From positions 1 through 15,691 of the forward strand of contig JADFJB010000110.1 in the NCBI GenBank assembly GCA_022566355.1: a DNA stretch of 15,691 bases, given 5' to 3'. The notes below the pieces were generated by a model, which saw only the letters and a list, made by a program, of their open reading frames with translations, made no database searches and was not told where the DNA came from. Position numbers and translations under genes: made by a program. Shown piece after piece: positions 13,992 through 15,691 of this stretch; positions within the stretch are counted from its first letter, which is position 1; each line of letters begins with the position of its first letter. The DNA is from a candidate division KSB1 bacterium (GTDB taxonomy: Bacteria; Zhuqueibacterota; JdFR-76; DREG01).

Positions 13992-14020
13992 TTAGTAACC
14001 TTGAATGATGCAAATATAAA

Positions 14021-14115
14021 AACCGCTAAAGCGGTTGAAATCTTTTGATAATCCTATTAGCACCTGGCTTAAGCCAGGTGTTAATAAATAATCTGTAATA
14101 ACCGTTGCAACGGTT
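14021..14115. repeat. Three-palindrome REP-like element
   Basis: The left palindrome is AACCGCT-AA-AGCGGTT (14021-14036), the centre is CACCTGGCTTAAGCCAGGTG (14061-14080, perfect over 20 bases) and the right is AACCGTTGCAACGGTT (14100-14115, perfect over 16). The outer two share AACCG...CGGTT and flank the centre almost symmetrically. Such sets resemble REP-type repeats mobilised by RAYT transposases; no transposase is present in the window. The first hairpin could also end the sigma-factor transcript. Confidence 0.8.
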
Positions 14116-14290
14116 TCAAGGCAATTTGCTATTTCATCAATTATTTTGTAAATGTTGTTCATCTTGTTAATCCTGTCTTAATTTTTTTTCGAATAAGTAC
14201 GCGTTACTATGAAAATCCTGAAATTTGATTTTAGAGTTTGCTTAGAAATTAGAAATTCGAAATTGCATCCACCTGCTTTTTGTTAGTGTA

Positions 14291-14483: not shown

Positions 14484-15691
14484 ATGCCGCCGGATACAAC
14501 TGCAGTTTCTTCATTTTTAGCAAATCCCAACCCTTTAACAATTATTGCAACTATTGTTGGAATTATAGCCGGCTTGGTTGCGATTACAGTTGGATACATC
14601 ACAAAGATACATCCCTGGTTGCAAAACAAACGAGATCGCCGATCCTTAAAAAAGAGATTTGGCGCTGAGCTTTATCCAATTGGAGTCATTGAAAATTCAA
14701 CCCGTTATTATATTGAGCCTTTTTGCCAGAGCCTCGATCCGGCCGGCTCGGAAGAACCTCGACTTGTATATGGCGCAAAGCAGAATCTTTTCGATGCAAT
14801 AGATGACGCCTTAAACAACCCGACCGATTACCGCTACATATTCTTACTGGCTGATTCGGGAATGGGAAAATCAACTTTCTTGCTCAATTACTACGCGCGT
14901 AATTTAAGAAAACGCCGACGGAAATTCGAATTCCAACTCATCCCTTTGGGAATTCCCGACGCTGATAAGAGGATTGTGCGGGTTAAGAACAAAAAGGATA
15001 CTGTATTATTTCTCGATGCCCTGGATGAAGACACGCTCGCCATCGTCGATCATGTGGAACGGCTGAGAATTCTGCTCGACTTATCCAGAGAGTTTGCCAA
15101 AGTCCTGATCACCTGCAGAACCCAATTTTTCCCAAAGGAAGAAGAGATTCCTCAAGAAACCGGTATCGTTAAGTTTGGGCCACGGGAAGCTGGTGAAAAG
15201 GCTGAATTTGTTTTTCATAAACTCTATCTTTCGCCATTTACCAATGAACAAGTTCAAGCTTATTTAAAAAAGCGTTATCCGCTGAGGCAGTTAAAGCGCC
15301 GGGGTATCGCCCAGGAGATGGTGAAAAAAATTCCCAATCTCAGCATTCGGCCCATGCTGCTGGCACATATAGATGATTTGGTAACAACTGGACGAAATAT
15401 TAATTATGCTTTTGAACTATACGAAGAAATGGTCGAAGCCTGGTTAATACGAGAAGAAGGGATTGTTCCCGGCTTGAAAAAGGACCCTTTACGCAAATTT
15501 TCTGAGAGATTGGCAGTCGATTTGTACACCAAAAGGAAAGCACGCGGCGCTGAACGTATTGCCAAAGATAAACTCGCTATGCTGGCTAATAAATGGAACA
15601 TACCCCTGAATGACTGGCAACTCACCGGTCGTTCCCTGCTTAATCGCGACGCTGGTGGAAATTACAAGTTCGCCCACCGTTCTATCATGGA
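14484..15691 (+). CDS. Membrane-anchored NACHT-type NTPase, cut by the window end
   Basis: The first 402 residues of a longer protein, open to the last base. One hydrophobic helix (about 18-39) is followed by a basic stretch (KRDRRSLKK, 49-57), so the bulk should face the cytoplasm. The NTPase has Walker A ADSGMGKST (123-131), with Ala for the usual first Gly; Walker B TVLFLDALDED (173-183), whose LDALDE matches the NACHT form; and sensor-like VLITCRTQFFP (207-217). Helical-bundle blocks SIRPMLLAHIDDL (287-299) and YKFAHRSIM (394-402) are typical of NACHT proteins. AGGG lies seven bases before the ATG. Bacterial NACHT proteins (bNACHT) include antiphage proteins that sense through C-terminal repeats; here that part lies beyond the window, so the target and effector are unknown. 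A defence role is inferred. Confidence 0.85.
   Translation, partial: MPPDTTAVSSFLANPNPLTIIATIVGIIAGLVAITVGYITKIHPWLQNKRDRRSLKKRFGAELYPIGVIENSTRYYIEPFCQSLDPAGSEEPRLVYGAKQNLFDAIDDALNNPTDYRYIFLLADSGMGKSTFLLNYYARNLRKRRRKFEFQLIPLGIPDADKRIVRVKNKKDTVLFLDALDEDTLAIVDHVERLRILLDLSREFAKVLITCRTQFFPKEEEIPQETGIVKFGPREAGEKAEFVFHKLYLSPFTNEQVQAYLKKRYPLRQLKRRGIAQEMVKKIPNLSIRPMLLAHIDDLVTTGRNINYAFELYEEMVEAWLIREEGIVPGLKKDPLRKFSERLAVDLYTKRKARGAERIAKDKLAMLANKWNIPLNDWQLTGRSLLNRDAGGNYKFAHRSIM

Follow-up and report, generated by a model that had tools for sequence, protein, structure and literature searches.

A membrane-anchored NLR-like STAND NTPase gene of a candidate division KSB1 bacterium, with relatives whose lectin-fold sensors appear to be diversified by DGRs

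The gene at the end of the window (the whole stretch of 15,691 nucleotides analyzed here) encodes, judging from its motifs and those of its homologues, an NLR/NACHT-like STAND NTPase carried on one N-terminal membrane helix. The main feature beyond the view of the earlier note on this DNA is the diversification of the C-terminus, driven by diversity-generating retroelements (DGRs), that is read from the sequences of its relatives, and KSB1 bacteria probably have immune-like receptors with targeted, antibody-like variation. The balance stands about even on a fuller reading, in which the window gene would be the first half of a gene for a receptor that is anchored in the membrane and NLR-like, carries a DGR-diversified lectin-fold sensor, oligomerizes on binding a ligand and damages the membrane in defense. 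The domain order, diversification, topology and fold in this reading are taken from sequences and a structural model of relatives, and we infer the ligand, the oligomerization, the membrane damage and the defensive role.

The open reading frame lies on the forward strand, starts with an intact ATG at 14484 and continues for 402 codons with 0 stops to the contig end at 15691, where the 3' sensor part is broken off. The window is the entire contig C110 of genome G000, and the truncation therefore stems from assembly. The product begins with a single predicted transmembrane helix (residues 18-36, nucleotides 14535..14591, mean hydropathy 2.62) followed by the basic stretch KIHPWLQNKRDRRSLKKR. Further along the same strand are the Walker A motif ADSGMGKS (14850..14873, with GMGK at nucleotide 14859) and, by motif reading, a NACHT-style Walker B of the D-small-hydrophobic-D-E type, LFLDALDED (15006..15032), and the sensor-1-like motif TCRTQFF (15111..15131). 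All of the elements behind the earlier proposal of one N-terminal membrane helix fused to a NACHT-type NTPase were thus found. Across 35 homologues, the most divergent at 25%, the LADSGMGK of Walker A was near-perfectly conserved and D178, D181 and E182 were invariant, and because of this conservation the motifs are not chance. Upstream of the gene is a dispersed, REP/BIME-like intergenic repeat (14000-14230) holding three short palindromes (14021-14036, 14061-14080 and 14100-14115), copies of which, about 200 bp long and 71-85% similar, lie on several other contigs of G000. Searching Rfam with the window gave 0 matches.

Pfam matched the NTPase to nSTAND_NTPase5 (E 0.0015) and nSTAND3 (E 0.0017), both below gathering and both scoring slightly better than NACHT itself (E 0.046; 14 bits versus a gathering value of 26.7). 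The match to AAA_16 was also under the Pfam cut-off, and that to the NCBIfam model of EruA, a NACHT antiphage protein, was far under the equivalog cut-off (E 0.0028). A profile search of PDB sequences returned no matches, and the link to NLRs therefore rests on motif and fold. The fold was tested on L106, the nearest full-length relative (77% identical over the NTPase). AlphaFold2 modeled L106 with a mean pLDDT of 81.9, and residues 53-499 of this model aligned to NLRC4 with a Z of 18.5 over 336 residues, compared with a Z of 13.8 for NLRP3 and about 10-12 for AAA+ proteins, and residues 446-619 aligned to the C-terminal domain of Legionella Lcl (Z 10.3). Structural alignment also related the model to AVAST5 (Z 11.6) and Avs5 (Z 10.5), and Avs4 was matched by Foldseek. 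The NLR fold of the model and the conserved motifs support the earlier assignment to NLR-like signaling proteins; the NTPase did not fall away from NACHT, its fold being nearest to NACHT proteins even though the Pfam NACHT match is below threshold.

A clear N-terminal helix was present in 62 of the 80 family sequences scored, with no other N-terminal module, in agreement with the prior description of the helix as the only N-terminal domain. The count of Lys and Arg was higher after the helix than before it in 57 of the 62 helix-bearing homologues, a positive-inside bias that predicts an N-out/C-in topology with the NTPase and sensor in the cytoplasm.

Homologues were patchily distributed, being present in 8 of the 59 genomes searched, with the window's own counted, and several genomes had multiple copies; a scan of genome contigs yielded 80 homologous loci from many phyla. 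The closest homologues, L106, L107 and G053:C199, are 72-77% identical to the window gene, and L106, of 623 aa, has Lcl_C as its last domain (PF07603, once called DUF1566; E 6e-20). The C-terminus is Lcl_C in most KSB1 relatives and an FGE-sulfatase domain in a few, while those from other phyla also include pentapeptide and leucine-rich-repeat ends or regions without a domain assignment. Both Lcl_C and FGE have the C-type-lectin fold, which is the fold that DGR targets use (PMC6642488, PMC10907252). The missing C-terminus had been guessed to be pentapeptide, SUMF1, TPR or LRR; the closest relatives instead carry Lcl_C, and FGE (SUMF1), pentapeptide and LRR occur in other relatives. A housekeeping C-terminus, which the earlier note had named as evidence against its proposal, was rejected, since the relatives end in Lcl_C or other non-housekeeping domains. 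Proteobacterial members from Lysobacter, Luteimonas and Sphingomonas (L131, L135, L138, L141 and L144) share a C-terminal region of about 260 residues without assignment, and no DGR was seen in the neighborhoods examined near them. In the family tree, many homologues outside KSB1 have no DGR and different C-termini, which we count against the main reading.

DGR cassettes made up of Avd, a template repeat (TR), a reverse transcriptase (RT) and a variable repeat (VR) adjoin STAND homologues in G036:C5, G053:C306, G030:C146, L111 and L112. Most of the cassette RTs have the DGR-type motif IGNLTSQ, and the G036 Avd matched bAvd (PF22296) with an E of 1.1e-8, slightly under gathering. The VR forms the final 25-30 or so codons of the lectin-fold sensor in these relatives. 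For six STAND targets, 86 of 87 mismatches between TR and VR fell at TR adenines, with adenine making up about 1/3 of the template (per-locus p from 1.5e-5 to 2e-9). Comparison of L077 with L111 revealed identical TRs (0/91 differences) and VRs that differ at 16 of 72 sites (22%), versus 12 of 330 (3.6%) in the remaining Lcl_C (p 1.3e-6), which is the trace expected from targeted hypermutation since the two split. Within the clade of the window gene itself, L108 is accompanied by a DGR RT and L106 by an Avd gene, and G053:C199 has Avd together with a TR-like repeat whose reading is rich in asparagine. Some differences between this repeat and its VR are at non-adenine sites, and no RT was found between the repeat and the next target.

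Several KSB1 receptor copies (L107, L108, L110 and G035:C47) are frameshifted or interrupted, through what may be assembly error, retrohoming error or decay; the frame break of L107 falls within the variable repeat. The Chlorobi members L153, L162, L171, L178, L183 and L184 have FGE sensors with clear template and variable repeats, and at several of these loci there are two or more variable repeats.

The templates of STAND cassettes match further receptors. The TRs in G030 and L112 also match VRs of TIR-Lcl_C proteins, that of G030 in addition the VR of a short Lcl_C protein with a membrane helix, and that of G036 the VR of a protein in which CHAT, nSTAND1, a membrane helix and Lcl_C follow in order. 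In G053, the STAND genes have deoxyribosyltransferase-like-Lcl_C proteins as neighbors, and one of these proteins carries a membrane helix. The TIR-Lcl_C proteins are without a convincing membrane helix, and therefore their pocket should be cytosolic; a hydropathy peak at residues 53-71 of the G030 protein was rejected as a membrane helix because it falls within the TIR domain. The helix of the CHAT-STAND protein lies between the STAND and Lcl_C domains, so that its pocket may face the periplasm. We tentatively suggest, as a possibility well short of an even chance, that one DGR template feeds one hypervariable pocket to several output arms (an NLR-like one that perturbs the membrane, TIR, CHAT-STAND and deoxyribosyltransferase-like), part of them cytosolic and part facing the periplasm. 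Such an arrangement would constitute an anticipatory, somatically diversifying, antibody-like receptor set, with membrane rupture as one output.

In the working we propose for the receptor of the window gene, a signal-anchor helix at the N-terminus would be followed by the NACHT-like STAND switch and then by a sensor of C-type-lectin fold, either Lcl_C or FGE. The DGR RT would copy the template RNA with errors at adenines, and the mutated cDNA would replace the VR, giving cells with differing ligand pockets on the cytoplasmic side. A cytoplasmic ligand, most likely a protein of a phage or other invader, would bind the diversified pocket, upon which the ATPase would open and oligomerize at the inner membrane. 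The clustered N-terminal helices might then perturb or permeabilize that membrane, and the infected cell would be killed or halted.

The main rival, less probable yet to be taken seriously, retains the DGR-diversified receptor and treats the helix as an anchor only, output coming from a separate effector such as a co-diversified TIR-Lcl_C or CHAT-STAND-Lcl_C protein of the cassette. Candidates are at hand in the TIR-Lcl_C proteins of G030 and L112, the deoxyribosyltransferase-like-Lcl_C proteins of G053 and the CHAT-STAND-Lcl_C protein of G036, and for Thiohalocapsa PB-PSB1 it has been proposed that an adaptor recruits a separate protease (PMC10907252). These neighbors, however, bear sensors of their own and look more like receptors acting in parallel than like effectors acting downstream; many homologues of other phyla have no such neighbor, and the helix is the sole constant N-terminal part. 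It is unlikely, in our estimation, that the role of the diversified pocket lies in self/non-self recognition, symbiosis or cell-cell signaling instead of immunity. In favor of such a role, the majority of DGR targets in cells are anchored in the membrane and are believed to bind substrates outside the cell (PMC8144416), but the sensor is cytoplasmic by predicted topology, and soluble TIR-Lcl_C proteins use the same template.

The assembly of the window's own genome, G000, is 98.5% complete and in 213 contigs. A search of these contigs revealed no intact DGR RT and no Lcl_C-type template, which also counts against the main reading; the sole DGR-type RT found is on C146 and has lost its 5' part. 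It belongs to the remnants of a second DGR, of FGE type (L086, G000:C146, 1-1781), made up of an FGE-type target end, an Avd-like gene, a DUF559-like gene and this RT. When G000 was searched with the C-termini of relatives for the missing 3' end, two VR-like ends of Lcl_C type were obtained, one at the start of contig C175 (bp 3-163) and one in a frameshifted gene on C183, and the sites at which they differ are mostly A in the templates of other genomes. The C175 end has the strand needed for a continuation of the window gene, with a gap between C110 and C175 of about 0.5 kb judged from L106; in the synteny comparison, no relative held genes of both flanks together. The C183 gene (L082, 2658-4015) encodes a multi-helix membrane protein, then frame breaks, then Lcl_C with the VR-like end, and resembles a second DGR target that has been broken. 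That the window copy is an ordinary STAND protein or a relic, its working DGR or Lcl_C end lost or never present, is improbable, for although G000 has only the broken RT on C146 and the frameshifted target on C183, and L107, L108, L110 and G035:C47 are frameshifted, the window ORF is unbroken up to the contig end, its closest relatives are Lcl_C proteins and G000 retains two VR-like ends.

STAND NTPases with DGR-diversified CLec sensors have been proposed as putative antigen sensors, and those described include N-terminal extensions and effectors of TIR or peptidase type, with a membrane placement for DGR 3 (PMC10907252); links of DGRs to putative immunity have also been surveyed (PMC10053308) and were reported for VMAP systems (PMC7159879). 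Within the literature covered, which was open-licence papers, the window-gene family is a membrane-anchored variant of these published sensors. Likened by description, DGR 3 and DGR 6 of Thiohalocapsa PB-PSB1 (DGR clade 5D, of multicellular bacteria; PMC10907252) share the central STAND/NACHT NTPase and the C-terminal CLec with VR, often two targets per cassette, and some targets with an N-terminal TIR or peptidase. The DGR 3 targets there are NACHT plus CLec with a predicted cytoplasmic or periplasmic placement (PMC10907252). The window-gene family, by contrast, is defined by one constant N-terminal signal-anchor helix, has Lcl_C/DUF1566 or FGE as sensor, is hosted by candidate division KSB1, Chlorobi and Bacteroidota, and includes members without a DGR, whose ends are pentapeptide, LRR or of other kinds.

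The bNACHT and Avs anti-phage STAND proteins (bNACHT25, AVAST5 and Avs4; PMC12169576) share the tripartite plan and the NLR-like switch, but their described N-terminal effectors are nucleases or SIR2 (PMC12169576), whereas the family studied here has a lone membrane helix. No PADLOC model matched the window protein, five STAND homologues of the family, or the CHAT-STAND protein, which also weighs against the main reading. PADLOC applied to 78 neighboring proteins from six loci gave a few defense-type matches (GajB-like, RT-helicase and AriA); these were not adopted as a defense island, there being no background set for comparison. The Lcl_C/DUF1566 targets of DGRs (PMC6642488; Legionella Lcl C-terminal domain, 8q4e) have the same C-terminal CLec domain, the commonest Pfam of DGR targets, yet those described are mostly surface or adhesin-like, unlike the KSB1 proteins in which it is fused to a predicted intracellular NLR-like switch. 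The DGR-linked FGS domains of VMAP ternary conflict systems (PMC7159879) likewise bring a DGR-diversified CLec into a putative conflict system, but no vWA, MoxR or VMAP parts were seen here.

The family bears on whether DGR-diversified NLR-like proteins act as adaptive immune sensors. The receptor is compact (about 620 aa) and encoded by a single gene, with TR, VR, Avd and RT in one cassette and a one-helix candidate output, so that the question could be put to the test in E. coli; the one NTPase family also has both DGR-diversified sensors and fixed sensors (pentapeptide, LRR), a natural contrast.

The DGR RTs at L112 (10746-12266) and L078 (1303-2910) have a C-terminal MutS domain I (PF01624), with a score of 27.5 bits against a cut-off of 20.6 in the L112 RT and a weaker match in that of L078. 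A MutS-like DGR accessory, MSL (PF01624), is already known (PMC10053308); in known DGRs MSL is an accessory (PMC10053308), whereas in L112 and L078 the MutS domain is fused to the RT.
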